From the NCBI GenBank assembly GCA_014904845.1, contig MU119241.1, positions 124,001-188,000 on the forward strand: a DNA stretch of 64,000 nucleotides. The letters are read 5' to 3'. The DNA is from Acephala macrosclerotiorum. Lineage: Eukaryota > Ascomycota > Leotiomycetes > Helotiales > Mollisiaceae. The notes beneath the pieces are model-generated. The model did not search any database. It saw nothing but the letters and a program-made list of their open reading frames with translations, and was not told where the DNA came from. Positions 5,224 to 60,047 of the stretch are shown here, in pieces (positions within the stretch are counted from its first letter, which is position 1; the number at the start of each line of letters is the position of its first letter). The translations under genes were made by a program, and so were the position numbers.

Positions 5224-5561
5224 CTACAGGGCCTAATAAATGTTAATAGGCACAGGCCAGTATTTAACTAGATATAGCAAAATACCGTGAATCATGGAGA
5301 GATGATTGGTCTCACTACCCCTTGGCAACACGGCCACAATCACCTCACGATTAACATTTAAAACAGCCTGTGGGTAGTATTACAACCTGTAGGTTTGCCC
5401 AACGCTTACTACCCACAGGGCCTTTAAAAGGTTAATTCTGAGGTGATTGTGGCCGTGTCTTGAAAGGGTGGCCAGACCAATCATCTGTTCGAGATCGCAG
5501 TGTTTTACTATATCTAGTTAAACACTGGTCATTGCTTATTAATATTTAATAGGGCCTGTAG
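5224..5561. mobile_element. Fold-back element, 338 bp
   Basis: Nearly the whole segment is an imperfect inverted repeat. The left arm begins CTACAGGGCCTAATAAATG at 5224. The right arm, read backwards from 5561, begins CTACAGGCCCTATTAAATA. Both continue through TTTAACTAGATATAG, GATGATTGGTCT and ACGGCCACAATCACCTCA. The centre has a second hairpin (CCTGTGGGTAGTA / TACTACCCACAGG). The terminal TACAGG and AATAAATGTTAA motifs are shared with the elements at 4274 and 4587, so these are probably one superfamily. No coding capacity. Confidence 0.8.
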
Positions 5562-5691
5562 GGATTACTACGTATTGTTTGGACCGTGCCGTCACGCCAT
5601 ACTGTATTAATGACCCTATAACGCCATGCTATATCTCTAACACCAGATCTAATCCGACTTATCGGATATTGTACAAGATCCTTCGTAAGCC

Positions 5692-6812
5692 TCATGTGGG
5701 CATGACCCCGATAAAATCCCGCCAATCGGGTCCAAAGCTCTCATAATAATTCTCACTCAGATCCGTGAGAAACAAGAACTCAGAACGCTCGCTTAGACGG
5801 TACGCAAACTTTCTCAAATTGACTTCGCTCAACCCTGTTGGCAGAGAGTGGATAATGTAGCTGTAGTCTGAACGGTTTAGGGGAAGCGACACGAGTGCTG
5901 TGGCTTGTTCTTGGTACGATTGGTAGGACCCCTCGAACACAACCGTTATGTCTGTGCCCGAGACGTTGAGCCCTGTGTCAGGGATCGTGCCAGGATTGTG
6001 AATAACCTGCCATGAGATGATGAATTAGCACGTGTTTGGACCCTGAAATATCATTGCGAAAACAAGCCGGGGATGCCGGCCCGCCGGCGATCCTTTGGAG
6101 GCATGTCCAAACGTTGGAGGGACTTCCTGACAATCACAAAGTAGACTGGATCTCTTACCATTTTCTCAGACAGCACACCGGTAGCATTCTTCACTGCTTG
6201 GTTGATGGTTGTCAGATACTCTACTGTCGCGGCTGAGAATTCGCTGACAACCTCGTCGAAAAATATGCCATGAACTGCAAGTCCTGTCGAATTGGCTATG
6301 GTAGCCCAGCTGGAATATGTAGAGATATCTTCGAGAACATTGGTGATATTCCTTGTTCCATATCCAGTACGAACGTAGCCAACTGTTTGTACATTGGTGA
6401 AGTTGTTGAGCTTCTGAATCAGAGGCACAAAGTCGTCGCCAGGGTATGATGATGGTCCAGGACCACTATCTGGGTTCAGAATCACGGTAAAATCGAGAGT
6501 CGAGCGAGCAGTGACACTGGGAATACCATCAGCCTCTTGCTGAGAACAACAGGAAGAGTCAAAGAGAACGAGCAAGACCCACACATCAAAGAGAGGGTCC
6601 CAAGATGAACCATTTTCGGGATATATGTACAATGGCACAAGGACGTTGGATTTGAAGCTCTTTGGATACTTCGGTCGTGGGAGAATAACAGCTAGAGGAA
6701 CGATGAGAGCAACAAGAGCTGCAGCAACCGCAATAAAGATGATTGCAAGGAAGCGCCATCGTTTTGGATTCCTAGGAAGCACCCGCAACTCTCTGGCTTC
6801 TTTGGCTTCCAT
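5692..6812 (-). CDS. sph3: Membrane-anchored spherulin-4 glycoside hydrolase, Sph3-like
   Basis: In Aspergillus, Sph3 is a membrane-anchored hydrolase of the galactosaminogalactan pathway, needed for polymer production. Model: exons 6812-6585, 6539-6159 and 6006-5692, 307 residues, all phases zero. The first intron is only 45 nt. A basic N-terminus (residues 1-18) is followed by one strong membrane segment at about 19-46 (FLAIIFIAVAAALVALI), making a type II anchor with the barrel outside. Conserved blocks: VLVPLYIYP, VILNPDSGPG, VGYVRTGYG, VHGIFFDEV with the Asp-Glu pair, VIHNPGT, and VVFEGSY with the distal Glu. The start is ATG 6812; the codon at 6815 is GTG. It is divergent from the giant glycosyltransferase, with a shared 1.2-kb upstream region, and is the more canonical of the two copies. 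Confidence 0.85.
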
Positions 6813-14000: not shown

Positions 14001-17000
14001 ATACAGATGAGCTACTTCTCCGCCGCAGAGAGGAGTATGCCCGGGAGTCAATTGTCAACACTTTCGAGTACGAGTATCCCAACGAGAATGCGCGGCACTC
14101 GTATATAAACACGAGCCACCGACTCCGGAAACCAATTTTGAATATGCCAATACAGCGTCGGTGTGTTGAAGGTGCCCTCAAAGGCCAGATAATCCAATAT
14201 GACAGGAGAGGTTACATCAAATCCGGCTCGGTCATCAAAGACGACAACCTTGTTGAGTTCCAATTCTGGTATCGCAGAAACGCAGGCTTTGGTGACGAGC
14301 TGCTAAGGGCTGAGTACGTTCTTCCATTCATGACAGTCCAAGTATTTTGGTGCATACCACACGCCAATCATCCCGAGAAATTAGACAGATGGATTCCGCA
14401 CTCGAAGGTTATGCAAGCTACATTCATACAAGCCGACATGTTGTATGAAGTGAAGTGGCACTACGACCACAAGTTCCACCCTATCGTCACGACAATACTC
14501 AACGGCGAAGAGGTCCCAACCCCTCCAATGATACAACACGACTGGCTAGGCGTGCTCCAGAAGCCGAAGGACTTTGACTTCATAAGTGACAATCCATTTT
14601 TATCGTTCAAGTCACTCCACACCAACTTCTTCTCACGACTATTGGGTCTCAATACCCGATCTTATCCGATTTCCACGTCACAGGCCAGGACTCATCTATG
14701 GAAAAGCTGGAAGAACGGCAAGGATCTTGATGCCGTTACCGCCCGATGGCTTGATGAGATCTCGCTCAGGTCAGAGAAAAAGCTGAAATCTTATTGGAGA
14801 AACCGAGACTTCGGCCGTCTGAGAGCCGCACACAGGCACATAGAGTCGCATGCAGACACGATCATGGCAAGAGTTGAGATCGAACCGGAGATTAGCTCGT
14901 GGACACCACTTGCATTCAAGATCAGCGACTTGCTGAGTTTTGGTCAGGGCGGCGATACTCGGATTAATACCAGAACCATTGCCACCCAATTGCAAGACAG
15001 GGACAACAAGCTCAATGTCCTCGCCATGGATACCGGTACTTGGCCTAATGAAGGTGGTGGTGTCTCGGCTTGTCGTCGAGATATGGTCAACAATCTTGAT
15101 ACTATTCGATGGCACATCATAGCTGAATCCGCAAACGACTTTGGAGTTCCTAAATTCCAGATCGAGAAGAATGTCCAGTCTCTCACAATCTTACCGCTTT
15201 GGGGCATGGACTTCCTCACTCCAGCCCATGGAATGTTCCAAGATCATCTCGACTCAGCAGTCCAGAAGCGTTCTCACGACACGCGAGATGTCGATATCAA
15301 GAAGCGGTTTCTTCCAATCCTCACTACTCTGGTTCGATGCTCGAGAGCAGTTCATCTCGAACGACACCACATAGACGAAGCCACCAAAGCCATGGTTGAT
15401 TTGAATACATACTTCGAAACATCTCGGCATTGGAGTGACGTATGGATGAGCGATATCGTCAAGGAGAAATGGCGGGAGCTCTGGTTGACCGAAGACATGG
15501 AAAATGCAAGGCCAGCATCAAAATGGTTGGATGCTGAACGTCCCACAATAGCGCATCTTGACAATGCGCTAGATATGTGGCAGCGCTGTAAGTCCTCTTC
15601 TCTTCCAACCATCGATTCATCACTGCCCATGTGCTGACTTGACTCGCCTCTTCTTTAGATTTGTTCATCTTCTCGATTCCCGTCCCGGAAGTCATCCCCG
15701 ATGTCTTCCAAGCTTCTCATCACTTTGCTGGCGCTTCGTATGGCGTCGTGTGCAAGATCAAACGAAATTGCACATTGCACGTCTGGGACCACTGCATTAG
15801 CTGGAGAGAGGTTACCGTGTTCTTGTCCTCAGCCATGTCGTTTGACAATCCATTTGTTTGCACTGCCCTGATGTCGTTATCTCGTGTGGCCTCTGTCGTC
15901 ATCCTTCATCATGCAGATGTCGTACTTCCATGCGCGGACTTCTTCAATCCGGGATGGGAGGTTGAATTGGGATCGGGTCAAGGAGAGTTCGAACATCGAA
16001 AGACGTTCGCTCGTAAGATCGACCCTGTTGTCAACGGAATTACCGGCATGGAGAATTTCAAGCCTATCGAGACAATTAAGTCAAAGCTGCCTACTGTGGT
16101 CATGCTGTCTCATGTCAGGTATGTTCCCCCCCTTCCCCCAATCATCATAGCCCGCACACTGACCATGCGAATAGATTCGTGAAGGACATCAAAACCGCAA
16201 TCCTAGCCGCCGATATCATCGTTAACGATTGGGGAATCGCCGACTACCGCCTGGATATCTACGGAGATATGGAACGAGCTCCAACATATGCAGTAGAGTG
16301 TCAAGAGATCATTGCCTCGAAGTCACTCCGTGGCAATGTCTCGCTAAAGGGTCTTGGAAGCCCATCAAAAGTCCTTGAAGAAGCATGGATCTTCCTGAAC
16401 TCCTCAGTATCTGAAGGTCTACCATTGGCCATGGGAGAAGCTGCCCTCTTTGGTGTTCCTGTCGTCTGCACTGACGTTGGTGCATCATTCCGAGTTGTCA
16501 CAGATCCTCTCACCGGCAAACGCTTCAGTGCTGTTGTACCTCCCAACGACGCTATTTCACTCGCCAAAGCACAAGTGAACGTCCTTGCGCTGCTCGACGA
16601 GTGGGCTGAGTTTGCCGAAGATGCGCCGGGATACCATCCTAGGCTACCAGCTCATCCCACTAGCGATGATGTAGAATGGATCATGAAGAGAATGTACGAG
16701 AAGACCGAACAGCGACGTCGCCTTGGTATGATGGGTCGTGCGAACATTCTCAACAATTTCTCCAGCGAGCGCTATCTCCGAGAACACGAACAGATGCTTT
16801 GGATTGGCAAATACCGGAGCCAGAGTTACCGCACTCGTACTCGCGCACTGAGATCAAGTGGCATCAGTATGGCCAACACAGAATCACCGCTCAGAAAAAG
16901 AAAGAACGGGTTATGGTATAATTCTGTGATGACGGAGGAGACGAAGGTTCCTCGCTTTAACAGCATGCCTGTATCGAGTAATGCAAGCTGGACGATGACG

Positions 17001-39324: not shown

Positions 39325-39628
39325 TTTTTTATTTTGTTTTTAAAGACGGTTTTTATTTTAATTTTAATAAAAATTTTCGAAATTTTTTTTTGAATTTAAT
39401 AATTTAAAATTATTAATATTTATTTAAATATTTTTATAATTTATTTATATATATAATATTTTAAATTTTTTATTTTTTATTATTAATTAAAGTTTTATTA
39501 ATATATATAAGATATTTAATATATAACTTTATTTTATAAATAATAATAAATATTTATATCGAATAAAATTTAAAATTTTTTTTTAAATAATTTTGATTTT
39601 AGTTTTAATATAATAACGCTATAAAATT
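39325..39628. other. AT-rich block, probable RIP-degraded repeat
   Basis: About 300 bp of nearly pure A/T, in abrupt contrast to both sides. Such blocks in Pezizomycotina usually are transposons mutated by repeat-induced point mutation. It ends in AATAACGCTATAAAATTG, close to a motif (AATAACGCTATAGGATTTG) in the element-rich interval near 4612, so the ancestor may belong to those elements. The HET gene ends in its last bases. Confidence 0.75.
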
Positions 39629-42029
39629 GTCAATGTCCGCGTCCATGTACAGTCGTTTTTACTACTCTTTTTTACATCGTCTTCATAACTGAGATCACCA
39701 AACCAACTCTGGAAATCCTCGCTCACTTGACACTTTAATAACCCAACTCTCCGGAATATCTCTGCCTTCTCATTTATAGGCACAACCACAACAGCAGACA
39801 AAGACCATTTGCATATGCCACGTACACCGGGGCACGCGACAACAAGGAGACACAAAACCTTGACAAAGCCTTGCGACTGTACCAATTCATGGATCGACTC
39901 GTTATCAAGGATTACCTCACCTATCCACTCCTCGGGGTGTTCGGCATCCACACAATTGGCACCCCATTTCGCCCCCCTAAGGTACCCTAGTTCTCTGTCC
40001 TCAGTGTCCTGTTCTTCGTCAATAGGGCAGAGTTTTCCGCTCCTAGCTCGACCACGTATTTTTAAGGCACCATATGTGACTCGGTCAAAGGCATTCAAAG
40101 CGTTGGATGGTCGGCGAATGTCATAATGGAGGAGTTGGACGCCAAGGGGTGATCTTGGCTCGTAACATTGGCTGGTGAACTCAATTCCGGCAATGTGAGT
40201 AGACGCCCAGGACCATGATGGTGCAACATATTCCATATCGCCTGGAACTTGTTCACCCCCAACCAATGAAGGATCTGAGCGTGGAGTCTGGTTGGGGTCC
40301 GGTTTCCGATACCAGGGCGCCGTCCGATACCACGACAGGCCGCACTGAATATCTTCTTTCCAAATTCCTGCTAGATACGTAGCACCATAAAGTTCCTGGA
40401 ACTTTGTCGCTAATCCAGCAATTGCCCGAAGCTTGTCCGCCAAGTATGTCAGAGAGCGACTATTGTACTCTTTAACTGCCAAATACCAACAGAAGAAAAT
40501 ATCTCCGTTGGATATTTCCGGATTGTGTGGATCGCGAAGGGCCCACCTTATTTGTCGATGTGAATATTCTTCAGAATTAAGAACCGGCATCGTTTCATTA
40601 CCAGCATAGCTCATGCAAAGCCAAGACATCTGATCGGATCCGAATATCAGCTCACGCGTGCTCAAAACCTCTTCTTGGTATACCCAAGCACGGGCATAGA
40701 GAGGTTCAGAGAGATTGTAAGAAGAACGATCCCCTGCAAGCCTGATGTACCCGCCGAATTCAAAGACCTGACCTTCTTCGTTCACGAATCCGGAGATCTC
40801 GCAAGGCCTGTTCCAGCGAGGATCTCGGCTTGCGAAGAGACCAGAGTTGGCGTTGAATCCTCCCGCAGCGGTAATTGTCAGGATTGAATTTCGATAGATG
40901 TCGCCCATGGAGGCCAGTTCGCTTTCCACATCCCCAGGAGAGTCCTGAATAATGCACAGCGCATCAATCCAGAGGTATCGGCATCCCAAGAATCGACAGA
41001 CTGTAGCCGCATGTTGAAAAGTAAGAGGCAGGTCTTCCGTTGGTACGGCTTGAAGAAGTTCATGAATGTTGTCCTTGGTGGTCAAATAGCGAGTCGTATT
41101 GCCCCAGCAATAGCTCAAGGTCATGTAAGAAGCATATTGTCCTTTCGATTCACGAAGGACCAAACGACCTGATTCTTCGACCTCGAGGATTCGATTTGGG
41201 AGGGGAGGATGAGCAGAATGAGAGGCTGCTCCAGCGGTGCATTGTTGATGAGATCCTAAGCATTCATTCATCCAGAGACGCGCCATTTTGAGATTAATAA
41301 AAGACCCGGTGGACTTCAACTGGAGGTTGTCCGGATACTCCAGCTCCAACGGGTCCAGTGGATTTTCGTGAAAACCTTCAACCGGCTTACGAACTGTGTA
41401 GACAGTAACGTTTTCGTGCTTCATGTTGAAATAGTCCCTCTCCTCGTAGTTGAGCTCCCGTAAGGATTCTGTACCAGATACTTGTCAACATCAATCAATA
41501 CTAGGGACGTGCAGAAACCTACCAGGATATATGCCTTCGAAAAGGATAGTTGGTCAATGTAAAACCAGTTTACGTAGAGCAGGAGAAAGGTTCCATCACT
41601 CTCACACGGCCAATGGTCCCTGGAGTTTTTCCACATTGCCAGAGTGATTGATTGAAGTCCATGCTTTCTAACAACTGACGGAATGTTTTTTCCCCCAAAT
41701 TGAGACCTAAATATTCCACCATAGAGAAATGCACATAATTGACACCCAGCATTGGCAGATTGCTGTAAACCCTCTTGATTCGTGCGATGCTCGTAAATGT
41801 AGCAATTTTCTAGATCCTTTGTATAGTTATAGCCTAAAGGATTGGGCGTCGAAATTTCTTTGAACTCGTTAGGGAACGGTTTGCGTAAGACTATCTCGGA
41901 GTGTGTAGTACAAGACGCGAAGGAACTTTTTGGTAGCAATTCGGGTCTTTTGGGCCACGAGCAGGTGCAAGGTGGAAGATCGTGCCGCGGATTGAACGTC
42001 GGCGGGAGAAAGGTCCATTCCCTTGACAT
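39619..42029 (-). CDS. HET-domain (heterokaryon incompatibility) protein
   Basis: HET proteins mediate non-self recognition and regulated cell death after hyphal fusion. Model: exon 42029-41519, a 50-nt intron, exon 41468-39619, 786 residues. The donor that keeps phase is GTTTCT; the better-looking GTAGGT four bases upstream would break the frame, so this junction needs transcript support. The N-terminal part has the usual GCQLCAFLYGG. The HET core follows: YMTLSYCWGN, LPLTFQHAATVCRFLG, RYLWIDALCIIQD, MGDIYRNSILTITAAGG, and ARAWVYQEEVLSTREL. The C-terminal third is not a known repeat domain. The stop codon lies in the edge of the AT-rich block, so the tail may have been trimmed. Confidence 0.88.
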
Positions 42030-43585: not shown

Positions 43586-46318
43586 CTTGGAGGTCTTGTT
43601 GAAGGTTATTGTTGTTAATTGAGAATTTTGTTGGGTACTGGTGATTGATCTGAGGTGCTGTAAGAAAGATGGTTGAGGTTAGAAGGAGGTGGTGGAGCTA
43701 TATATACCCTTCGGGTTTGAAGAAGTTTATGGCCTGGTCTTCGTCGTTTTGAACCTGGATCAATTCAGACCCATTCACTTTCTTGAGCCACACTATTGTA
43801 TCGGTTCGAGAAGACCAATCTTTCCCTCAAATTCACCCCGATTCCGGATTCAGACGTCGAACGGTATTCAGTCCAGATCAAGCTCAGCGTACGATGTACT
43901 TCGCCTCTCAACACTTTAATTGCAATAGAAATTCACACAATTTTATATTACAAAAAGACGAGAGGCACATTCACTCCATAAATACAAAGCTGAGCACTCT
44001 CTCATTCCCAAAACTATGGATCCGAGGGCACACCGCACCCATAACCGCTCAACACCAGTCGTTGGATTTCAAAGCAGGTGCGAGTGCGTTGAGTTCTCGA
44101 ATCGACGAATCAGGGTGTTCATCAACGCCAAGACTGATCTCTAAGCGAGACCCCCCAAAAAGGGGCGGGTTTGGCCGCGCCCAGCGAAGATCAGCGAAGG
44201 ATCACCGCAACATCACGCGCATGAAGCACTGTGGGAGCGGGAAGCCCCTGAGTATGGAATTGATGCGGTGCGTTTCAGCTACTATCATTGGACGGAGGCT
44301 TGTGATGTGACCCCGCGATGATGATGTGCTGAACTAGCTCTAGACGGGCCATGAGATGGTGGCCAGTAGGTCCTGCGGGGTCCGGCACGTTACTGAATTA
44401 GCGAATTGAAGTGCAGCGTAGGCGCTCGGTATTGTGACTTGTGGGGTCGAGAAACAATTCGGATGAGGCTTTTATGAGCTTTCAAAAATGCCTTTTCTTC
44501 TAGATCCTTACTTGTCGGCGTAAAGGTCGGATGACTCTATTGGGAGCTACTTTGGGTAATCCGAGCGGCGTGTTGGGCAGCTTACTTTGTACTGCCGGCC
44601 TGGTCGGAGGTTGAAAAGTTTCCTTTCCCATCCTTCCATCTGCTCCCTACTACATTTCCACTTCGGATGACGATGAAGGATTTTATGTAAGTCCACAATT
44701 CCTCGTCCGAGTGCATCGCAAGAACTATGCTTCTAAATTCACACCACTCCTTCACTCGTGGATCTGGGGCGTCGTAAGCGAAAACGCCCTTCAGGGTTCT
44801 CATCGCCGAGTTTTGGTGAGTCTGAGGGGACCAATGCGCTGGAGCTGGGGCTCCCAATCGCTAAATTTCAGTGCTTTAGTGAGTCCCTGTTTTCGAGGTG
44901 CGGGTTTCGAAGCCGTTGAACTCCACGAAGAAGTAGTGTTACAATTTCTACATCATCGTCAGGTTTACGATCTTGGTTAGCGAACGAGTAACTGCAGAAT
45001 TTCCATGAAAATTACAAGATCGAGTACAGTACAATAGTTTGACAAGCCGGTCGTGAAAAGGAAATTGTCTCCCCCTCTGTACCGTCTAGGCTGACATGAC
45101 TCAATTCTATATCTTTTGCTCTACGAACAAACCTTCCCGACCAAACCACCATTTACAGTACTTGATACCACAGCTTTGAGATCAGAATATCTGTCACGGT
45201 TCGTCAGCAATTACAAAGCTCGGAGTCTTCCAAACGAAGTCATGACACACGGCAATTGTATCTTTCACAATTCAGCAAACTTTCACCCCTCCATATTACT
45301 TATCATCGTCCTCATAAATCAAATGCCTCCTCCACCACACTTCAGTACACGAGTAAATTATCAACACATTCGAATCACTAAAGTTTCTCTACCTATACCA
45401 TGCCGATACTTAATCTCCTCCTTTTGGACATCCTGCTAACAGGCTTCATCCTGCTCTGGAACCACACGAACAAGCCATCCAATCCCGAGAACTTGATTAC
45501 GAGATAGGCTTTCTTTGGTATTTAGGTCACTTGGCGCATGCTTCAGACCATTTACCATCTCCTCGAGCGTGCAGAGTTTAGATTCCATTTCGGACACGAC
45601 AGACGGAGAGGATTTCATTGTTGTAGTGAGATTGAGTTTGGCTTGAATTGAGGGGGAGAAGATCTCGGAAGTGGGCGTGCGGGATGGAAATTCATGTTGG
45701 TAGAATCTAGAGAACATTTTGAAAGAGTTAGAAGCGGTGGCATGGAATCATGGCCTCAATTGAAAGCGTTGACTTGGATTGTGTATTCATGTGTTGAGAT
45801 GTGTTGAGATGTGTTGAACTTCACTTATGCTATGATCACAAACGGCTGCGTTTGATACTATGACTCTTGCCAGCCAGAAGCAGAGCTCGCCACTCATCCA
45901 CATGAAATCATGAAGGGCTGGTCCGTCATCCCCGAACATACAAACTTGATGAAAGCGGCCTTATCAGGAAGCCATAAGAGCCCAAATCTCTCACTATCAA
46001 TTACTCTTCCATCTTCTACGACCCTAACACCTCTCAATCGACGAGAAGCAATAATCGAACAACAAAAATTGAAGATGGACACCATGCGAGGAATAGTCCT
46101 TTCAATCCTTCTGCAACTGGTCTTCCTTCAATTGTACATTTACTTTCTCGAACCTCCTACTGAAGTGATAGCGTTTTTTGCCTTCTTCTGCGTATTGATC
46201 ACGCTCAATATGGCTCCACACACTTCGCAACATGAAAATAATTTTACCTTTCTCTGACATTGTATTGCATAGTAATCCCAATCGGACACTCAATTTCTCC
46301 TCATCACTTTCAACCAAC
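43586..46318. other. 2.7-kb gene-poor region
   Basis: No gene is supported. A 93-codon ATG frame on the minus strand (45717-45436) is the best candidate but has no splice, signal or domain evidence. A short tandem TGTGTTGAGA repeat lies near 45789-45817. A TATA-like TATATATACCC near 43699 lies upstream of the secreted-protein gene. Confidence 0.4.
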
Positions 46319-47942
46319 TCAAATAACGTAACGAAACTGCGCATCATCTCCAAACTCACTCTCGACATGTGTATAAACCGTATCCCTCACCTTCCCATAC
46401 TTCCTATCCCTCTTCTTATTCTCCCTCCAAAGCAAGAAACTCTGCAACGTCGCCAACACAAATACCAGCAGACAAGCACCACAACTGATCCACATTCCCT
46501 TTCGATAATACGGCTCATCCCCCGGCGGAAAGATATTCGTCCCCAGAACCGGACCGCATTGACCGCCCGTTGACAAGATCGCCAGACCAGCTGCTCGTTT
46601 GGAATCCGTGGCGTGCGTGTTGGCTACCCAGGATAAGACGAGAGCTACGCTGGTGAAGATTATAGTGGCGAGGAAGAGACCAAAATAGCGGACTGCGACA
46701 ACGGTTTGGGTTGCGAGGAGGATGTAGCCTATTGCTGCGACGAGGCCAGCACCTGCTACGAAGGGACCTCGAACACCGACACGATCGGAGATGAATGCGC
46801 AGGCCACGATGCTAACGAAGCATAGGACATATGGTGGTGCTGAGAGACCGTTCGATTGAATAGTTGTAAAAGCTCCCATTTGCGAAATGATGGTGGGGAC
46901 GAAGAGTGGTAGGGAGGCAAAACAGACATTGCAGCCAAAGTAGATGAGAGGTGGGATGTAGGAGCGGTAGTCCATGAGAGCGCCGACTGCTTGTTTCCAT
47001 TCGAATTTGGAGGAGTTGCGGTCACCGGGTTGGCGTTCGGAGAGCTCGATTGCGATCTCACGGTCGCGTTCACTGAGAAAACGGGCTTTGGCTGGGCTGT
47101 CGGGAAGCCAGAACCAAGCAACGAATGCCAGGGCGATGGTAGGGAGACCTGGTGACTATAAGCGAATTATCCAAGCAATGTGCATATGTCCTTACCTTCA
47201 ACCAAGAATAGAATCCTCCATGAAGCTATAGAACCCTTTGCCTGTGAAATACCGTATGCCAATGCACCCCCGTAAGCGTTCGCCAACGCAGACCCTGACA
47301 AGAATATGCCCGTTCGCAATCCGAGTCGTTCGCGAGGGTAGAAGAATGATAGGTAGAGTGGCACTCCAGGCCCATACATGGCCTCAGGGATGGCGAGGAG
47401 GAATCGGCACACCATTAGTCCTGCCCAAGTAGTTGTTGCTGCTTGGACACTGGAGATGATTCCCCATACACACACAGTGCATGCGACCCATATGTGAGGA
47501 GGAAAGACTTTCCATCCAATTTGCGTCCATTGGAAGAGAATATCTAGCATTCGTTAGTAAGCCGATGATGGATCTGGAAAGAGGTGGGCATACACGAGAT
47601 GTAGAAGATCGTGCCTAACCATGAATATCGGTTGCCACCAATGTCAATGTCTTTCTGCATGCCGGCGACTTTGGCATTGCCGAGATTCGAACGATCGAGG
47701 ACACTGAGGGAGTAAAGGACAAAGATCAATGGCATTAAATGCCAGTCGAGTTTCCTGATCACAGCTTCCTCTTCTTCCTTTGTGAAGCGCGAAAGCCGAG
47801 CCTGGACCTCTTTTGGGACTTCCTTCTCTCTTGCAATATCTTCAATGTTTTCGTGGCCAATCTTCTCGTCGTCTAGAGATGAGGGAGGATCCTCGGGTCT
47901 TGGGATCGTTTGAACCTTCTCTGATGCTGAAGGGTAGGACAT
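46319..47942 (-). CDS. MFS transporter, allantoate permease (Dal5-like) family
   Basis: Anion:cation symporter family member moving small carboxylates, vitamins or ureides across the plasma membrane. Exons 47942-47594, 47543-47196 and 47148-46319 join in phase to 508 residues, the usual size. Seen: a charged cytoplasmic N-terminus of about 65 residues; LDWHLMPLIFVLYSLSVLDR with the family DRSNLGNA motif; FYISYILFQW formed across the first splice; a CRFLLAIPEAMYGPGVPLYL stretch; FYPRERLGLR; WRILFLVEGLPT across the second splice; a central loop ending in EWKQAVGALMDYRSY; and six further membrane segments. No neighbour fixes the substrate. Confidence 0.9.
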
Positions 47943-49640
47943 TATGGCGAGATCTGCTGATGGCCTTGAGCTGAAGAAGTGATGTCTGGCACTGCGTTGC
48001 GGATACTGAATAGCTATCTTTATGAAATCAACATTGCATCAGCTTGCAGTCCTTGTAGGAAGTCTTCTTCCGTATAGGGATTGGTCGATCCCCGCACTTG
48101 TTCCCCAGATTAGTATCTATGCGGGGTAGAACAGGGGTGAGATGACGTTTCAAGCCTTGAAGCTTATCTCGCCGTCCTGCACAGTATTATCTGCGGTAAG
48201 AATACTAACAGAGAAAGCTGCAGAGTAGAGTATATGAAAAGTGTGAAGGAGATAAAGGAAGTTTAGAGCCTCCCTTACAGTACTTGCAGTACGACCTCCT
48301 GTAAAGATGAACTGACGATCGATCCGTGTTGGAAACACTAACGTTACGGCGCAGCTGTGGCCCGTCGGCTACTCGCTTGGGTACGGAGATGGAAGTATTC
48401 CCCAAATTGCAAGCCATGCTTTCGGGCTTCGACGGGCAGTTGAACGTTTGTGGAGCCGTTGAGCTGACACCCCGGTTAGGGTTCTCTTCGAATGGTGGGA
48501 GTGATAAGGGTCTCGATCGCTGTTGCACGGACGGATGCAGCTGCCCAGCCTCCGTTCCACTACAGCAAATCGTTGAACACACCAGCTTTGAATTGTTAAG
48601 CTTGATATATGTTCCATCTGGCATGAAGAAGGCGTACACGAAGGAGGCAGGTAGATACCCTCATTCGCTTATTGCTGATTGGTAGGCACTTGCATCAAAT
48701 ACCCAGAGGAAACATTCGGTACCGAGAACTCCTTCTAAGTCTTAAACTTGGCCGACCGTACCGCAAAGAAATGCATACCCCCTGACCTGGTGGTCCATTC
48801 GTGGCTTGAGCATCTGACTCGAGCTTGTAATCGAGGATATGCATCAGCATGGCAGTCGATAGAGCTGGCCGATGCCTTTGCACTAGCTCTCTTCCGTTCT
48901 TTTGTCTGTGTTGACTGGAGGCAGGAAAAACTGATCGCTCGTTCGAGGAGTCCCCTTGCTCTAGGACTCGAAAATACGTCTGGAGTATTGCGCATCGGTT
49001 TGGATAACCTTCGGCGACTTCAGCAAGTGCTCGAAGGACATCTGGAAGCCGTATTTGTAGGACGCCTTCTTCCACAGCACGGTCAGCCAACAGATTATTC
49101 GCAGTATTCACTCCTTGCTCTTCATGCCCTATCACTGGTAATTCCCAGTATTCGGCCCATCTCCGTGGCGGTCGCGTCCACCATGCTCGCAGATTGTCTG
49201 GATGAAGCTCTCATCGCGGGGTTGGGACGCATAATTGGAGGTTCGACGAGAAGGAGGGGGTACCGACTAGACTTCTGGGAGGCTTCGCAAGGTACCCTTG
49301 CCTCGACCATACCTCAGCACGCGCACTGGACCGATATTGTGGGGATTGAATTTCGAGTGTTCTATGTGTGCTGGGAGGATTGAGAAGGACATTTACGATA
49401 ATAATATCAAAAGCGGTCTGATTCTGCCGGCCAAATCGGGCTTAGGTTTCCCCCTTTCTGAGCCCAGTTTCTTCAGGGCCTGGTGGACCCAAAGCCTCAG
49501 CCGTATGACACGTCAGTGAGTCGCCTTGCAGAGAGCCTGCATCCCACAGCCTCACAAGGCGAAGTATACAACATGCTCCTCGAATCCCTTTCATTTTCTT
49601 ACAGTTTACCTGTTTCTTGATTCGGACTTGCACTTGAATT
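47943..49640. other. 1.7-kb region with long frames but no supported gene
   Basis: Long overlapping frames occur at 48205-48685 and 48695-49383 on both strands (up to 211 codons, plus strand). The long plus frame begins only at a TTG, and none has a recognisable domain. On the minus strand a Trp-rich frame (about 49190-48695, including LPDVLRALAEVAEGYPNRC) reads more like protein and may be a remnant. GC content is higher than around it. I leave it uncalled. Confidence 0.35.
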
Positions 49641-52600
49641 ATGGAGGAGCCGTTGGACATTATTACTGAGGCTTTCAACAAGCTTAGAAAATCAATCTCT
49701 GATGAGGATGCCCTTGACTTTGAGTCCACAAAGCTCGAAGATGTGTGGACAGCCATTCGACAAATTGACAGCGCACAAAGACAGCGGCAATCTGCCCAGA
49801 ATTTACGGCGTGTGGAACCTTTGCTGAAAGGTATCGAGAAGTATGCGAAAGTCATTGAAGTCTTGTGCAATGGTACCCCCTTCATGCCATATGTCTGGGT
49901 TTGTAACCTCTGCCCCATTTTGCAGCCCGATTGCTCACAGAATTTAGGCTCCCATAAAATTAATGATACAGGTAAGGACGCCCAAGCAAGTTGTTTCGGT
50001 CCCTGACACGGTAGTTATTCAAGCTCGCAAGCCAGCATTATGCCATTTTCGAAGCACTCCTTATTGCTTATGCGGACATTGGTGCGGCTCTTCCGAGATT
50101 TGATCGTTATGAGAAGACCTTCAAGGAAAACCGGGAATTTCAGAGCGTTCTTGCCATCGTCTATAGCGGAATCCTCGAGTTCCACCAAAGGGCTTATAAG
50201 TTCTTTCGCAGGCGAGGTATATGAATCCTAATGATAATGATTTGAGTAGAAATATCGCTGACTTGTCCTTTTAGCATGGCAATCTTTGTTTCTTTCGCTC
50301 TGGAAAGACTTTGAGAGTCGATTCGCAAGTATAATCGATCGTCTTAAGAAACAACGGGATTTCGTGGATCGAGAAGCCGTATCTATTGATATAGTAGAGT
50401 CTAGAGAATCCCGTTTGAGACTTCAACGAGACATTCAGCAAACACATAAGCATTCGCTACAACTGCTCGAACAAAATGAGACGAATGCGGCAATTGCACG
50501 ATTGCAGCACTCCATAACTTGGCTCTCTGTCGACGACCGAGATCAGGAGATGTATTATGACCGAATCTCTACCAGACGACATGATGAAACTTGTGAGTGG
50601 GTTATGAGACAATCTCATATGAAATCCTGGATGAGAGATGATACAAACGACCCTGTATTATGGCTTAGCGGCAAGCCAGGGGCAGGTGTGTGATGCATCC
50701 TTTAATCAGCAGAAATGGACTGACTATTTCGAATCTCAGGCAAAAGCGTGATGTGCTCATACATCATACAAGTACTTCTCAAAGCACCCAGACTAGATAC
50801 TTGCTATTATTTCTGCAACGGCCAAGATGTGGAAAATGATTACGGTCAACTTCTGCGGACTATTACTTTGCAACTCTTAAGACGGAACATTCATTTGGCG
50901 TCATTGATTTGTAATGAATTTGTTTATCGAGGCAAGAGTTGTGGGATGAGGGAACTAAAGACTTTACTTCCTAAAATTCTAGAGATCACGTCATGCACAA
51001 GGATTGTGATTGATGGTATCGACGAATTTTCCAAGGAGACTCAATTATTAGTTCTTAAGGATTTGCAGAGCTTTTGTTACGGAGATGCCTTACGTTGTAA
51101 GATCATTTTCTCTAGTCGGAAGGAAGTTCATCTCGTCGAGAAATTATCGAGGAAATCACAGATTTGCCTAGATGATCGCGAAGAAGTCAAATTAGATATA
51201 CAGCTTTATGTGAAAAGCAGCGTTGGAGCCTTGCGAACATCGGACCACATGCTTTTAAGCAAGATCGAAGTAATTTTGGTGGATAAAGCTGATGGTAAGC
51301 AGCTTTGTGACATTAATTGAACTTATGCTAAAATTTCTCTAGGAATGTTCCTCTGGGTCAGATTAGTTGTTGAAGAGCTTCGTAATTGCTTTAGTGATTG
51401 GGACCTTGAAGATAGAGCAAATAGCTTGCCTAGAGGCTTGAAAGCAGCGTATGTAAAAACCTAACCTTGAATGATGACCTTTCCTTATTAGCTACTAGGT
51501 ATGGACGCATTCTCAAGAGGATTATGGACGAACATGGCACTGCTTCCCATGCCATCCGTGTTTTACAGTGGATGGCGTGCTGTTGTAGACCACTAAAGAT
51601 CTACGAGATACTTGACGGCATCACGTTGAGGCCTACCTGTCCGACACTCAATTGTAAGACACGAATACGAAAAGAGGTGCTGGATCTGTGCCGTCCACTC
51701 ATTGAGGATGGCCCATCAGAGACACTTGATTTCGTACATTTCTCAGCAAAAGAGTAACTTTTGACTCTTGATACAAAGCATACTAGATAACTGACTTCGT
51801 GCAGATACCTCCTTCGCGAAGGATTTCATGGGACAGCCCCGTTCATTAACCACGAGGATGCACATTTTAGTATTTGCTTTTCTTGTGTAGCCTATCTAAA
51901 CACTAGTTATTGCCTGCTTTCCGACCGTTCAACAGAGCAAGAAAGAGCAGAACAACTTGTCAAAGGGTTCCATGGATTGCATCCTTACGCTGATAGATTC
52001 TGGACACACCACCTTCAGGCATATTGCGCCTCTATACATAAAGAGCAGAAGCAACTCCAGCGGCCATTGCTAGATCAACTCAACGAGCTCATTAAGTTTC
52101 AAAAGGACATTTATCATCCTGAAGAGCAAATCGATCCGGTCCAAGTTGGGGGTTTAGAGATTCTCGATCAGCATCCTCGAATCATGTCTCTCGTTAGGAG
52201 GGCTATCGCGTTCAGAGCTAAGCTAGAACAAGACCACATGTCTAATTCTACCGATATATCCGCCGAAGGTACTTCAATTGAAGTTTCATTTTTTACCATT
52301 TAAATTATATTGATGTAGCTGACTTTTATAGATGCCGTACTAAAAAGTTGCGCATCAGACCCTACTTATTTCAGCAAAGTCCGTCATTACTATCAAATCT
52401 CTGTTGAATCGCTCTTAGATCCTCGAGCGTCGGAAAAGTTCCCTAGAATTCATCCTTCGCAATTGCAATCATTCTTAGGAACATTTGGTCTCTCTGCCTT
52501 TGTTTGCCGGTACATCCATTGCTCGAGAGCAACGCAAGGGTTTGATAGCTTCAAGCAGCGAGCAAATCATGAAGCTACCCATGCAAGAAACTTTCGCTGC

Positions 52601-54156
52601 GCACACTTATCCTGTGTGAGCTTTTCTACAGGTTTTGCCACAAAGGCTGCCTTGAATCGACATAATCAGAAATACCACACTGCCGTCGACAGCCATATTA
52701 GCCTGGCCGAGACTATTAGTACTTCGATGGGACTTCCAAACGCCTTCAAGGTCAAAGATAATATGCCGGCTGCTATTAAACAATTCCAACTGGACGTTTC
52801 GGGTGCTGTAGGGGAAATCGCTCTGCGCAAGACTCAAGAATTCGAAGGCTTGCTAGAGCAAGGACGATCATTCAAAACCGACACCCCTGAGGTCGAGCAG
52901 TTGGACAAGATAGTTCAACAAATGAAATGGAACGACCGAGCTCGCGATAATCGCGACCAATTTTTGTCGCTCAAGGAGGTTAGCGATCTCATCAAAGAGG
53001 GAAAAAGGCTTGAGATACCCGAATATAACGAGTTCTTGAATTATTACAAGGATCAAGCCTCTCAAGGTAGAGCCTGGGAAACCAAAGCCAAAGAATTGAT
53101 CAATGCTGAGAGTATTCACTACCCTCAACTAGAAGCTCTTTCCATTCAAGCTCAAGCTGTAGCACTTACCGTTTCGGTGGAGACCCTGGCTGCTGTCAAC
53201 CAGATCTTGGACAAGCAACGAGATGCAAAAAAGCAGATTATCTCTCTTTTCGAGCGAAGCAGGAACGAACATTTCAGGGAGCGACCCTTATATAGTGAGG
53301 TTCGCGAGATCATGGAGCAACTGGCAGAATTGAACACCAAACCCAACGGTACCTTGAATTTAGAGAAAGAGCAAAAGCGACACGAAGATTGGATGCGGAA
53401 AGGCAAGAAGCTCTTTGGCAGGGCAAATGCGCCATTACATATTCTCAAGTCTCATATGGAGTATGTTTTGGAAAGAAATCTCGATTGTTTCGATATCGCT
53501 TCCGACAAGCCAAGAATACCGACAAAGCCTGCTTTGAGAAAATCAAGTCTGAGATTCCTTGAGGTATTTTGTATCTGTCGCCGTATTGAAATTGGTTTAA
53601 TGATTGAGTGTGAACTTTGCCATGAGTGGTAAGCGCCTATGTCCAGTTTATATTGTTCCGAGGCTGACTTATTAGGTACCATAGCAAATGCTTAAGGATT
53701 GCTGAAGGAAAATTCAAAGACGAGAAGTATACCTGTCCTATTTGTGATTGGCGTGTGAAAATCCCACGTGATGCAGCAAAGCCCAAACTCGAGGATTTGC
53801 AAGCTTGGAAAAATGAAATTCCTTTGCTTCCTTTCCAGCCTGACGAAGAGGACATACTTGCGAAGATAATCGACAATGCACAAGAATTCAGGAATCACCT
53901 ATCACCGTTTTGCAACCCTACCATGTCTACAGCAGATGAGTGTGAAACTCAACGATTTTACTTGCGCAAGATCGAGGGTGCTGAGATTCTACTTGCCTTC
54001 GAAACCAATTTCTTCAGACAAGAACTTCATAAGTGGTCACCAGTAACAACCGAGCCACCACCACTCCTCCTGGAAAAACCAAAATCAACTAGAAAGCCTC
54101 GTCCAACGAAGCTACAAAAACTTCTGGCGGAGCATGGTGTTGATAGCAATCCTTGA
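49641..54156 (+). CDS. NACHT NLR-like protein fused to the C-terminal half of a KDM5/JARID1 demethylase
   Basis: Ten exons: 49641-49898, 49948-49971, 50024-50216, 50275-50685, 50740-51294, 51343-51448, 51499-51753, 51805-52268, 52332-53628, 53676-54156. All phases agree; 1,347 residues with no internal stop. Domains: residues 1-220, helical DUF7708-type N-terminus of fungal STAND proteins (PYVW then APIKLMIQ); Walker A GKPGAGKS at 291-298; Walker B RIVIDGIDEF at 383-392; a winged-helix-like region to about 620; C2H2 fingers at 814-839 and 845-871. A PLU-1-like region follows at about 915-1145 (KRHEDWMRKGKKLFGRANAP). The PHD finger spans 1169-1213 (Cys1169, 1171, 1182, 1185, His1190, Cys1193, 1208, 1211 all present). 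The KDM5-type tail has TQRFYLRKIEGAEILLAFET. JmjN, ARID and JmjC are absent. Exon 9 alone runs from before the C2H2 fingers into the PHD finger, so the fusion is not a splicing artefact. Confidence 0.9.
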
Positions 54157-54410
54157 CAACCAGGCATCTTCAACGATGCAACTTACGGCAGACTGGACTC
54201 AGTTGCCCTTGGAGCAGGAAATGACAGTCTGATGCGCGATACCTTTTGCTAGCAGCAGCCAATGGGTCTCAAGGATATTCGATGAGCTCACTAATCAGGA
54301 TGGTGATGAGCGAGTTCCGAAGGATAAGAAGAGGGGACTTCCTTCTAGGGCGGTGGATAATAGTTGGGATGGAGATGAGAATATGGAGCTGTTTCTTAAC
54401 GGCCCGTAAC

Positions 54411-54432
54411 TCTTCTCTTCTCTTCTCTTCTC
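54411..54432. repeat. (TCTTC)n microsatellite
   Basis: Four tandem units in the downstream flank of the NLR-KDM5 fusion gene. Confidence 0.8.
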
Positions 54433-55718
54433 ATCTAATTACAGTCCAGAAAGTCAGGAAAAACAGGCATTGCATTGGCGTTCTGGGGTATCATTTAGCC
54501 CTCGCACTTATACTTGGGACGCTTGGCAGGCATTGCGCACAGTTGTAATCTAGATGCTTATATGATATTTTGGGATTACGAAATCGAAAGGATGAAGTAA
54601 TGCCTTGGGCACTGCGCGAGGTGACCAACAATTGGCGACGATAACAATGTTCATGTCGCCAGTGTTCAAGTCCACATTTCTGCCATTGGAACGGACTTGA
54701 GCCAAGCTTTGAGAAATTTTGGAGAGCCACATCCAAATAAAAACGATGATCGCGCTCACCTTTCGGTGGTGTTTTTCTGGACCCGAGCACTTACTTCCCG
54801 GGTCGATTCATCATTTCCTCTGGAAGACTCACTTGTGTCAATGCTCTTTTCTCTGCCTTGATCTTTACGGCCCAACAACCTCATGTTTCGACAAAGCCCC
54901 AAGTGTACCCCCTTTCCTTGGCGAGAAACTCGCCTCTCCGATATCAACGCCCCTGATTCACGCCATATGAAAGAATTCTTCTCACTAGCAATTCTCAAAG
55001 ATTGGTAGTCGTTATATATCCTGAGAAGGATGTCATTCAGCTCGAGGATCAGAATTGGCTCCTACATCAAGAATTCATGAGCCCTGATGGGCTGGAGACA
55101 TTGGGAACGACTCTCAATCAGCAGGAACTTGAAGTGCGGTGTGCTATTCGATTTCAAGCTAAGCTGAAAATGGCGGACAATTGCACACAGCAGACTACTG
55201 GTGCATGCTCTTTCGTTGGAGTGAAGATGGTGGTGCGACTTTCGAGCACCCAAGAAGGTGGATCGCACAAATGTGCATCCGCTGTGCAGGCGGAAATAGT
55301 GCTGCTTGGGAGAGACTCGAGGCAGCAGTCACGTCCTATACCTGTGGAAGCAACTTTCCACACCTAGATGGAAGTGGCAAGAGAGTGAACATTGGGGAGA
55401 AAAACGCCACTCATGTTAATCACAGCTTTCTCATTCAACCCCAAAGTCGATATCGTGTCCGGCAACAGGGAGCACAGTAGTCAAAGGTGTTATGAAAGAG
55501 GTTCTTCCTCGATGCCGAGATCGTCGTGAACAGCGAGATATTGCTTTTATGAGAGCAACTTTAATGGGCATGAGCGGTAACGCGGAGGGGAAGGCCAAGA
55601 AGAAATTGGATACCTTGATGTCGTTGGACATACATGTTAGAAATCATGTGATTTACTCGTTAGTGCTGAGTCAGTGCTGCGGGGTTTTAAGAGATCTCTC
55701 TCTCTCTCTGAGAACCAT

Positions 55719-55762
55719 CATCATTAATATCATCAATAACAACAATAATCATCAATATCATC
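55719..55762. repeat. Imperfect ATC/AAT trinucleotide repeat
   Basis: Interrupted ATC, AAT and AAC units over about 45 bp, preceded by a CT dinucleotide run near 55689-55709. Non-coding. Confidence 0.7.
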
Positions 55763-56486
55763 AAATCTTGACAATACATGGTCGATGGCTAGGCTAGATT
55801 TGGAGAAGGTCAGGTGATTGTTTAATACCACAATGAAGTGCAATTTCTGTCTTAAACAAAATGAACTTGATCCTTGAGAACACTGAAATTGATAGAGCGT
55901 ATGTTGTTCTGCTGTCATCTCCGACCGAAATGAGATGATGAACTGCAGTTTCCCCAAAGCTCAAAAGGATCATGTAGGAGTCAAAAATATCAGAGCTGGA
56001 CGCCTTTCCTTTACTTTTCTTTGTGGGTTAGCGTCACTCGAATCACCTTGAGCTACAGCTTCGTGTTCATGACATTTCTCAATATCTTCAATCATTCTTC
56101 CAAAATCTTCAGTCCAGCTGCATCATTTCTGCTGTCTTGCAATTTTCATGATACAAATAGAGAACTACTGATTCCAAGCCGGCACATACATCTATGGCCG
56201 AGCAAGTGGTGGCGGAAATGTCGGTGCTGAGCAGGAAGACTGCTTCCATGCCCCACGTTCCGAGAACCGGCTCACGCTACCCCGCCAAACCTTCATCCCA
56301 AGACTTGGTCTTATACTCTTGTCACCATTTCTATACTCACTATCACTTGGCATGAAGCTTTAAATTTGTATAGGAATCCTTCATTGTTCGAAGCTTCGAC
56401 GAAAGGGACAAATCGGACTTGAAGTTTGTTCTGGTCTGACAGCTTGACGACCATCCACCTGCCTCAATTCTCATTTGACAGACAAA

Positions 56487-57932
56487 ATGGCGACTCATCA
56501 CCTAGCGGCTTGGTCCTGCAACCTGAAATACTCTGACCTTCCTCAGAACGTTGTCCAAGCCGCGGTCCGAAGTTTCTATAACTGGGCTGGCTGCGCTATA
56601 GGAGGAAGCAAACACCCCGCTACCACCATCGCCGTTCATCCCCCTCTCACCTCGCTCAGCTTCAAATACTAATCGCTCTTCTAGTACAACTCACTATCCC
56701 CCTTCTTCGGTCCAGCTCAATCCTCCCTACTCGGCCACCAAGGCAAAATCCGCATCGACGCCCAACACGCAGCCCTCTTAAACGGCATCGGCTCCCACGT
56801 TCACGACTACGACGACACACACCTCGACACAATAATCCACCCCACTGGCCCCGTAGCTAGCGCCCTTCTCGCCGTCGCCGAATGGAAAGGCTCCACCTCA
56901 GGAAAAGATTTCCTGCTCGCTCTCATCGCCGGAATCGAAGCAGAATGTAAAATCGGATTAGCTGTTTGGCCTGAGCATTATGATGTGGGCTGGCATATTA
57001 CTTCTACGACAGGGTCGATTGGTGCTGCAGTTGCTGTGAGTAAGTTATTGGGATTGAGTGAAATTCAGATGACGCATGCGATTGGGGTGGCGGCGACACA
57101 GGTTGTTGGATTGAGGGAGATGTTTGGGAGTCATACGAAGAGTTTCCATCCTGGCAGGGCGGCGCAGAGTGGATTGATGGCTGCTGTGCTTGCTCAAGGG
57201 GGTTATACTTCTAGTGAGCAAGCACTTGAAGCGAAAAGGGGATGGGCGAATGTTGTTGGTGTCACGAAGCCTGGTATCAAAGAGAATCTCGACAAATGGT
57301 TGGGAATGGCTTCTGGAGCCAGTGATGGTGTCGGTCTTTTTAGCGAGGGACTCGGAAGATGGGAGATTCCAAGAAACAGCTTCAAGCCTTTTCCATGCGG
57401 AATTGTCATTCATCCGATCATTGACGCTTGTGCGCAGATACATAATGAGATGAAGAAAGAGGGCTTGGATGTCAAGAACATTAAAACTGTTCATGCCAAA
57501 GTCCACCCACTAGTCTTGGAGCTCACTGGCAAGCGGAAACCCAGAGATGGACTGGAAGGGAAGTTCAGCGTCTTTCATGGAGCTGCCATCGGCTTGATTT
57601 ACGGAAAGGGTACTCCTTCCGAGTACGAGGACCATGTTGTTCAAGACACAAATGTCATCTCGATCCGAGACAAAGTCGATGCTGAAGCAGACAAAAGTCT
57701 CGGCGCTGATGAGACGATTGTGGTTGCAACACTGAATGATGGGAAGACGATCGAGAAGCACGTCAAACATGCAGTGGGTAGTTTGGAAGTCCCGATGGAT
57801 GATGAAATGTTGTCGAGGAAGTTTGTAGACCAGTGTATGGAGGTACTGGGAGACAAGGCTGAAGCTGCTAGTCAGGCGTGTTGGAATATCGAGACCGCAA
57901 GAGATGTGGTAGATGTTGCGAAGTTGCTTTGA
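56487..57932 (+). CDS. MmgE/PrpD family dehydratase or decarboxylase
   Basis: Family of 2-methylcitrate dehydratases and cis-aconitate decarboxylases. Exons 56487-56633 and 56685-57932 join in phase to 464 residues, a normal length. The start is ATG 56487 (MATHHLAAW). The intron has a TACTAATC branch and CTAG acceptor but an unusual GTTCAT donor; the junction ATTIA|YNSLSPFF reads naturally. Family blocks: NWAGCAIGGSKHPAT, HAALLNGIGSHVHDYDDTH, HPTGPVASALLAVAEW, GWHITSTTGSIGAA, KSFHPGRAAQSGLMAA, and KPFPCGIVIHPIID. There is no mitochondrial presequence, so it is likely cytosolic. With the transporter and two monooxygenases downstream it may belong to a small catabolic or biosynthetic cluster. 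Substrate unknown. Confidence 0.85.
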
Positions 57933-58245
57933 GGAATATGATCATTGTGCCATTAGATCTAAACCATCTTGAACGTCCATCCGGGGAAGAAATATGGCCC
58001 TTGTAATAATTGGTCCTTCAAGGAAGTGAGGTTGTCCCCTATTATTAATATACTGGGAGGTATGGTATCTCGTCCTCCTTTCTCATAGGAGTAGGTACCT
58101 CATCCTCGGTCTCAGCCTTCTTATCTTCAGAATCCTCTTTCAATGCTGCCTTCCTCTTGTCCCTATTCACGAACCACCGAATCACGAAGATCATGGTAAA
58201 TTCTCCCACGCTCAGAACGCTCATGACGGTGAAGCCCATCTTGAA

Positions 58246-60047
58246 TCAAGGTGCGTATTTGCCAACATTCAGAATCACCACTATTAAAAGTGTGTCAGTA
58301 CGCAGTTGCTTAGTTTTGGAAGAGGCATGAGCGATAATTGGGAAGGGGGAGTTGTGTACCTGGGACCCACGCGATGAAGACCTGTCCAAAAGTCTGTGCT
58401 ACACCAATAACTATGGCACGTTCCTCTGCGTCGTCATGACAGATCTCGTTTACCCAAGCATAGAGCTATGAGAATTTAATAAGTCAATTACAGTAGTGGA
58501 CGCAAATGAGAACATACCACAGGCCAAAGACCCCACGAAGCCGCATTGATGAGATACCCAAAGAAGGTTGCACCATATCCCGGACCTGAAGCTACAATTA
58601 CCATACCAGTGAAGTTGATAGTCTATATCGTGTTAGTGCAAGTGGATTTCCTCGCATGAAAGTCCCAGAAGTCAAGGACAAGAGACTCACAGCCGGAACA
58701 ATCATAACTTGCCACCTCTTACCGTCCAACCCATCCGAAACCCAAGCATACGCGAGAGTAGTAACAAGTCCAAGAGCTTGAGCTGCGGTCGGAAACAAAT
58801 TGATCTGATAGACTGAGAATCGATCCAAAGACTTCAACCAAACTGAGAAATAATTCAATGGCTGCGTAACCACACAATGAAATCTATTGAGTTATGTCAA
58901 TTTACCCCGCCCCTTTTATTAGCGAGAATCACTTACATGAGCATCAACGTAACAACCCAAATCGGCCAGTGGCCCAAAACCTTCCCAACTTTTGCCCAAG
59001 ACAACGGAACAGGCGCTCTCCGATCAATCCTCTGCATCCTCTCCACGTAAAACTTCTTTTTCTCCTGATTCAACCACCAAGCCTTCGTCGTATACGGATT
59101 ATCCGGGATAGCGAAAACGCCCCAAACAGGACCTGGCAGAGAAATAACTCCACAGAAGATGAAGAGCCAGCGCCAGCCAGGAAGGCCTAAGTGATTGTCG
59201 AGGCCTTTGTAGATTCCTGCTTGAAGGTAGCCGGAGAACATGCTGGCGGCGTAGGAGGCGGAGTAGAATATCGCTATGCGTTTTCCTAGCTCTGGCAGAT
59301 CATTAGATTTGGTGGGGCAGACGGCGGGAGGAGGGAAGTACCTCGTGGGGTGTACCATGAGCCCATCAACGTGATGACACCAACTGCGAATGGTGACTCG
59401 AGCATGCCGATTATGAAGCGGAGGGCGAATACTTGGTTCGTGGTACGAACAGCTGCGAAGCAGAAGATGACGATGGTCCAGAGGAACTCCATGACCGGGA
59501 GGTAATATGAGGGGCGGACTATACTTTGATCAGCCTTGTGCACTTGGTTGAAGGGCAGATGGACTTGCGCTTTGTTAACAAGAGTTGAGACGGGATCTGG
59601 CCTACGAGATAGCCGGAAGTGAAGAATGTGGTGAGGAGATTGTACTGATCTCCGTGAAAGTTGAGGTCCTCTTTCATTCCCGAGACATAGGCGTTCGCTG
59701 TCATGTCCGTCAGTACCGGTTCCTGCTAAGGCGAAGCATAACTCACTGATGTTGCCCGAGTCCAGAAGCCTAATGAAATATCCATAGGTCGCCCAGCTCC
59801 TATAAATTGAAAGGTTCATTGTCAGTATTTGAATGCATCAACCAGTGGGGCCTAAGTCTCAAAGTTGCACACACATGATAAACAAGTCAAGTCGTTGGAC
59901 AAGCTTTCTCTCTTCTGGGGATCGTTCCCCGTCCCAGATGATTTCACGAATCTTGATCCACCTGGACTTCTTTACGGAAATGTGATTGTCACCTGCATCG
60001 TCTGCAACAGCAGTGATGACATCTGTTGTTTCTGCTTGGATTCCCAT
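58246..60047 (-). CDS. MFS allantoate-permease-type transporter, premature stop before the last helix
   Basis: Nine exons from ATG 60047: 60047-59875, 59799-59747, 59697-59569, 59518-59342, 59291-58937, 58883-58691, 58622-58518, 58465-58360, 58280-58246. All phases agree, 441 residues. Intron 3 uses a GC donor (GCAAGT), a known minor class. Family blocks: [16 protein letters not shown] formed by splicing, [69 protein letters not shown], and [18 protein letters not shown] at 58248 follows NVGKYAP, where relatives have Arg or Lys. Downstream the same frame carries FKMGFTVMSVL, the last membrane helix and a charged tail to 58045. So the protein lacks its final helix unless the stop is a base error or is read through. 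Divergent orientation relative to the PrpD gene is not seen; they converge. Confidence 0.8.

Follow-up and report, generated by a model that had tools for sequence, protein, structure and literature searches.

Why should a fungal receptor gene of the NLR type end in a piece of a histone demethylase, and what would that piece be for? The question is raised by a gene at positions 49641-54156 of a 64,000-nucleotide stretch of the Acephala macrosclerotiorum genome (assembly GCA_014904845.1, contig MU119241.1, positions 124,001 to 188,000, forward strand; hereafter the window). A reading of the sequence alone had described it as an NLR fused to two C2H2 fingers and to the PLU-1/PHD half of a KDM5 histone demethylase. 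The gene was rebuilt and its parts were searched for in the fungus's own assembly (69.66 Mb, 778 contigs), in which contigs, and the family members lying on them, are named here by C numbers; the window is C40:124001-188000. The fusion of NLR core, C2H2 pair and KDM5 part is confirmed, and it very probably belongs to a family of NLR cores with varied copied tails. Judged from sequence, this may well be a family of receptors that take up copies of nuclear regulators in a slot at the C-terminus, the tails serving as bait; this reading, which takes in the family anatomy, is our preferred one, held tentatively. The observations behind it are the fusion itself, the variety of tails carried by related NLR cores, the presence of resident genes matching them, in-frame junctions, shared introns, and low ratios of non-synonymous to synonymous substitution (dN/dS).

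Rebuilding the gene from the raw sequence reproduced the proposed ten exons in phase, with 1,347 codons plus a stop and nine GT..AG introns of 47-63 nt. A paralogue on contig C8 matched the window gene over 49640-52719 in one piece, ending there, at 71.9% nucleotide identity (blastn). When the window introns before the junction were lifted onto this paralogue, 8 of 8 had GT..AG borders and identical phases and the C8 frame was open, which supports the gene model independently. The fungal STAND N-terminus with NACHT Walker motifs was also borne out: the spliced protein matched DUF7708 (PF24809) at residues 63-194 and NPHP3_N (PF24883), a NACHT-type nucleotide-binding domain, at residues 263-422 in Pfam, and its translation carries Walker A (GKPGAGKS) and Walker B (IVIDGIDE) motifs, placing it by nucleotide binding among the fungal NLRs (STAND). 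No match to NACHT itself (PF05729) was reported by Pfam in the window protein, the matching family being NPHP3_N. Neither did Pfam find an ankyrin (ANK), WD40 or TPR repeat family in it, its C-terminal end being formed by the C2H2 pair and the KDM5 piece. DUF7708 is the candidate N-terminal domain of effector type; genome-wide, a search gave 30 matches to it. The gene and the sequence just behind it are arranged as follows.

49641-50685 (+): exons 1-4, DUF7708 and the start of the NACHT-type domain (gene model; PF24809, 7.5e-15; introns conserved in the C8 paralogue).
50740-52268 (+): exons 5-8, the remaining NPHP3_N/NACHT-type domain with a winged-helix-like and following region (PF24883, 9.7e-31; GPIID_WHD, 3.5e-4, under its Pfam cut-off).
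52332-52719 (+): first part of exon 9, the C2H2 pair of the NLR family, fingers within residues 812-871 (blastn match to the C8 paralogue stops at 52719).
52720-52769 (+): junction or short linker, lying where C8 homology has ended and KDM5 homology has not yet begun, with no clear similarity to either parent.
52770-53628 (+): captured KDM5 part, the C-terminal two thirds of PLU-1 and the PHD start, continuing the exon that holds the C2H2 pair (PF08429; blastn match to KDM5 on C322).
53629-53675 (+): intron at the same place as a KDM5 intron (EW|YH), the alignment being continuous across both introns.
53676-54156 (+): exon 10, in which the PHD finger is completed and some of the KDM5 tail follows, with TGA at 54154-54156 (81.6% amino acid identity over 158 codons; C4HC3 pattern).
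54157-54409 (+): untranslated KDM5 3' relic in two frames, reaching KDM5's own C-terminal residues (comparison with KDM5).

The single exon 52332-53628 does run from the fingers into the PHD, as had been proposed, and the junction lies inside one open exon. The two C2H2 fingers are present where they were expected. On the other hand, they are not part of the captured piece: the C8 homology runs through them to 52719, indicating that the pair belongs to the NLR, as a module common to the paralogues. In an alignment of seven C2H2 modules, the window gene included, the eight C/H zinc ligand columns were invariant (the modules of C106, C326, C150 and C19 were left out). The PLU-1 domain was confirmed by Pfam (PF08429, residues 809-1128, 3.1e-73), but the match starts about 93 residues before KDM5 homology begins at 52770 (residue ~902) and so overruns the NLR's own C2H2 part; of the PLU-1 domain of KDM5, which has 346 residues, about two thirds (~227) is present, with ~119 gone at its start. 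The PHD finger is intact, with a Pfam match (8e-6) and a complete C4HC3 zinc ligand pattern at residues 1169-1211. Exon 9 matched nothing in the PDB at 0.001.

A resident gene matching the captured part was found in the same genome. PLU-1 was found at two places, the window gene and a gene on C322 which is a full KDM5, its single frame of 976 codons encoding PHD, JmjC, C5HC2 and PLU-1. The probable source is still a separate gene of the host, 74.6% identical in nucleotides to the copy over 52770-54143, with a second blastn alignment at 72.9% over 54146-54330. The two have in common the C-terminal two thirds of PLU-1, the PHD, part of the tail and the intron; the captured part differs from KDM5 in being fused to an NLR and in lacking JmjC and C5HC2, neither of which Pfam found in the window protein. 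The genome search placed none of its six JmjC matches on C40 (C322 was among them), in agreement with the suggestion that the catalytic half is missing. The KDM5 alignment crosses both introns, indicating that the copy was taken from genomic DNA and not from mRNA. The KDM5 tail had been described as present; it is so in part, in exon 10, shortened by a deletion that removed a net 348 nt (116 codons) without changing the frame, after which the TGA of the window gene replaces a KDM5 Arg codon. Behind this stop lies the relic of about 250 bp, which passes into a second frame from about 54233 and holds the last KDM5 residues at 54409. A further 43-residue match to the KDM5-derived part was seen at C63:245923-246048 on the minus strand (52%, 3e-8) and may be another small KDM5-like fragment or chance.

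Is the window gene a single accident? The C2H2 module was found at 13 places in the genome with E of 0.001 or lower; the last two are weak, and one of these carries stops. Tails could be matched to other genes at 6 of the 13 (C40, C8, C35, C73, C17 and C106), and the tails at two places, C29 and C6, were not read.

C40 (the window gene): KDM5 tail.
C8: MED15 and bHLH tail.
C35: TUP1 WD40 tail, matching C43 over 1,159 bp at 73.5%, up to the frame end.
C73: MED15 tail, from another stretch than that of C8, split by an insertion of ~1.8 kb.
C17: CRZ1-like tail, of the six the one with the weakest match.
C106: tail made of pieces of a C92 gene (74%) and a C28 gene (76%), in a broken locus with stops.
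C83, C326 and C150: tails of further C2H2 fingers, read by eye.
C62: ankyrin tail (Pfam).
C19: ankyrin tail, by eye.

The C8 tail matches a gene on C12 in stretches of swapped order (67% and 72% nucleotide identity) and, along 331 bp, a C15 gene of the bHLH type (84.6%). A KIX_2 (MED15-type) domain was detected by Pfam in both the C8 tail (3.4e-10) and the resident C12 gene (6.2e-13). The name MED15 rests on this domain, as the PDB match of the C12 gene to human MED15 (7jmn, 1.2e-7) was not trusted alone, the sequence being glutamine-rich. In the C15 gene the HLH domain lies at residues 386-436, whereas the captured piece covers roughly residues 43-193 and ends before it, so that the bHLH DNA-binding part is absent from the C8 tail. 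The C8 product is open for 1,431 amino acids once two MED15 introns, positioned manually, are removed.

The source of the C35 tail, the C43 gene, we take by sequence recognition to be TUP1; among its PDB matches, 1erj (1.2e-53) was only tenth among many WD40 proteins. The C35 core is open with introns at matching places, except for one intron left in the splice and one GC donor. The C17 tail was 57% alike over 106 amino acids to a resident C16 gene (tblastx), presumably CRZ1 by recognition, for which Pfam gives C2H2 families. At C106 no NLR core was found within 3.1 kb before the tail; its source genes on C92 and C28 had no Pfam family, and that on C92 no PDB match at E 1. The C106 tail (L036, reverse-complement 3083-5273) also shows a WW-like stretch by eye. 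Junctions to the tail are open in frame in C40, C8, C35 and C73, and the tails of C40, C8 and C35, the three compared, had no mutual similarity in blastp at E 1. In a rough tree built from stacked tblastn pieces, C40 and C8 were sisters (0.999) and C73 lay elsewhere; from this, the MED15 captures of C8 and C73 look like separate events.

The C73 insertion (contig C73, L040 about 4698-6466, continued in L071) contains a repeat also found beside KDM5, and the MED15 stretch resumes behind it. At the C322 locus, just behind KDM5 (L003 1279-2441, minus strand), this repeat is accompanied by transposase pieces (DDE_Tnp_1_7, 7.7e-7, and another at 0.001, under cut-off). Transposon-mediated capture was considered because the repeat lies next to KDM5, inside the C73 insertion and beyond the C35 tail, and was rejected: the repeat is widespread, with at least 44 matches genome-wide (the best 40 of 218 candidates having been scored) and one at window 4626-5126, and its position is uninformative. 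No repeats of 25 bp or more were found in window 45000-60000.

The captured KDM5 part was compared with the resident gene over 443 codons, giving 126.3 non-synonymous changes in 1,047 sites and 183.7 synonymous changes in 282 sites, or dN 0.132, dS 1.52 and dN/dS about 0.09, with synonymous sites near saturation (exon 10 alone is saturated). In neutral simulations of the copy branch, 0 of 500 runs remained stop-free at each of the branch lengths 0.25, 0.5 and 0.65, and 4 of 500 did at 0.1; amino acid identity (200 runs each) was 0.51-0.65 at 0.25 and 0.74-0.86 at 0.1, the observed value being 0.79. The TUP1 tail of C35 gave dN/dS of 0.04-0.11, and the NLR core plus C2H2 part of C40 and C8 gave 0.08-0.19.

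Taken together, these results suggest that pieces of nuclear regulators have been repeatedly copied into a C-terminal slot of receptors made of DUF7708, a NACHT-type domain and a C2H2 pair. In our preferred reading the copied part would act as an integrated decoy: foreign or non-self factors that disturb the genuine regulator would bind this bait and so release the NACHT-type switch, and the receptor would then oligomerise and signal defence or cell death through its DUF7708 end. The pieces taken (PLU-1/PHD, a WD40 propeller, KIX, and a transcription factor segment without its DNA-binding domain, with no catalytic part of KDM5) fit bait best, and that two copies lack the part doing the source's main job (JmjC; HLH) counts for it. 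It is possible, though we would put it more cautiously, that these genes form a class of NLR in which an interchangeable slot behind the C2H2 pair draws samples from the transcription machinery of the cell itself (KDM5, TUP1, MED15-KIX, bHLH and CRZ1-like), a bait repertoire watching the nucleus. The idea of an integrated-domain NLR, advanced in the sequence-only reading for the window gene, is strengthened by the captured regulator pieces in paralogues; the captured part of the window gene, which has few amino acid changes for its silent divergence, may be bait or output.

Several points weigh against the bait. No foreign factor targeting these regulators is known here, and the CRZ1-like fingers and other C2H2 tails suit DNA or chromatin output equally. 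The C73 tail is interrupted by its insertion, and constraint is weaker in C8/bHLH (dN/dS 0.40), C8/MED15 (0.37) and C73/MED15 (0.28). The short neutral branch of 0.1 reproduces the observed amino acid identity, though with few stop-free runs. Moreover, low dN/dS or few amino acid changes are also seen in the broken C106 (0.16 and 0.11 against C92, 0.34 against C28), in the 28 codons just after the stop of the window gene (5 non-synonymous against 14 synonymous changes) and in the 54 codons of the second-frame relic (dN 0.275, dS 1.62). The constraint in C106 and the relic implies that the breaks are recent or that much of the divergence is older than the capture. Low dN/dS is thus not proof of present use, and part of the pattern may predate capture or breaks.

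The tails could instead be output or address modules, the fingers and the co-regulator piece bringing an activated receptor to chromatin or promoters. This is the strongest of the alternatives, although we think it unlikely. Five of the seven source genes could be named and all five are transcription or chromatin proteins (TUP1 and CRZ1 by recognition), the PHD finger retains its zinc ligands, and three members end in more C2H2 fingers and one in CRZ1-like fingers; but JmjC and the bHLH DNA-binding domain were left behind, two members carry ankyrin tails instead, and the order-swapped MED15 fragments of C8 would hardly be compatible with a working module.

If, on the other hand, NLR genes with lost 3' ends had merely run into duplicated fragments, the tails would be passive and their open frames left over or decaying. 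Such an origin would explain why C106 has stops yet low dN/dS, why the KDM5 end of the window gene was lost through deletion, stop and frame shift, and why C73 bears an insertion. It is nevertheless improbable in view of the 443 stop-free codons and low ratio of the KDM5 part, the similarly low ratio of the TUP1 tail and the open in-frame junctions of four members.

Still less probable is a foreign origin of the tails, in which the NLRs were acquired by horizontal transfer or hybridisation and carry regulators of a donor fungus about 25% different from those of the host. Identities of 72-79% in 8 of 10 tail-to-source blastn alignments longer than 150 bp, and constraint in the untranslated relic, are in line with it. 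With synonymous sites near saturation, however, old captures of any kind should show comparable values, and the remaining two alignments are at 84.6% and 67.2%. A foreign origin would in any case be compatible with either a bait or an output function. An assembly chimera or wrong gene model, for which the single assembly of 778 contigs leaves formal room, is scarcely credible, because the junction lies within one open exon, the model is confirmed by the C8 paralogue, whose own in-frame junction is a different one, and a divergence of 25% from KDM5 speaks against an erroneous join to that locus itself.

Elsewhere in the window, a 621-codon frame at 39622-41484 (-), about 8 kb from the NLR gene, encodes a heterokaryon incompatibility (HET) domain (3e-30); the two together possibly mark an incompatibility region. 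At 8312-15637 (+) there is a series of long open frames, four of which (323, 644, 544 and 620 codons) were scanned without a Pfam match at 1e-5.

Returning to the bait, its interest lies in the question of a guarding role of fungal NLRs against foreign factors, such as the NLRs of plants and animals have: a family that copies co-regulator pieces names candidate targets (KDM5, TUP1 and MED15), and the integrated-decoy question becomes testable in laboratory fungi. If the tails were outputs, the receptor would act directly on chromatin.

Plant NLRs carry in-frame fused copies of host proteins, transcription regulators among them. They differ from the present family in kingdom and in N-terminal domain, and no LRR and no known effector is found here. 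PMC12258605 and PMC5658179 both cite plant NLRs with integrated domains. The claim that the architecture is undescribed held in our literature search, which covered titles and the beginnings of abstracts and found no PLU-1, histone demethylase, Tup1 or MED15 parts described in fungal NLRs (CRZ1 and bHLH were outside its scope); the architecture is new within that search, whereas the decoy concept for fungal NLRs is already in print, for CHK2, in PMC12258605. Among relatives of the window gene, C62 (ankyrin) and C35 (TUP1 WD40) have ends of the classical repeat kind. PMC12258605 counts 34 fungal NLRs with C2H2 zinc fingers, and a Podospora zinc-finger NLR is mentioned as a possible decoy in PMC5658179; these share C-terminal zinc fingers with the family described here, several members of which continue beyond the fingers into captured regulator pieces. 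Closest are the Sordariales NLRs with a kinase domain derived from CHK2/PRD-4, proposed as an integrated decoy, which according to PMC12258605 are likewise fungal NLRs of the NACHT type that carry at the C-terminus an additional domain from a single-copy host gene, but have one source, nine NLRs and one suggested integration. In contrast, the present family drew on at least five nuclear-regulator sources within one NLR family of one genome, behind a shared C2H2 pair.

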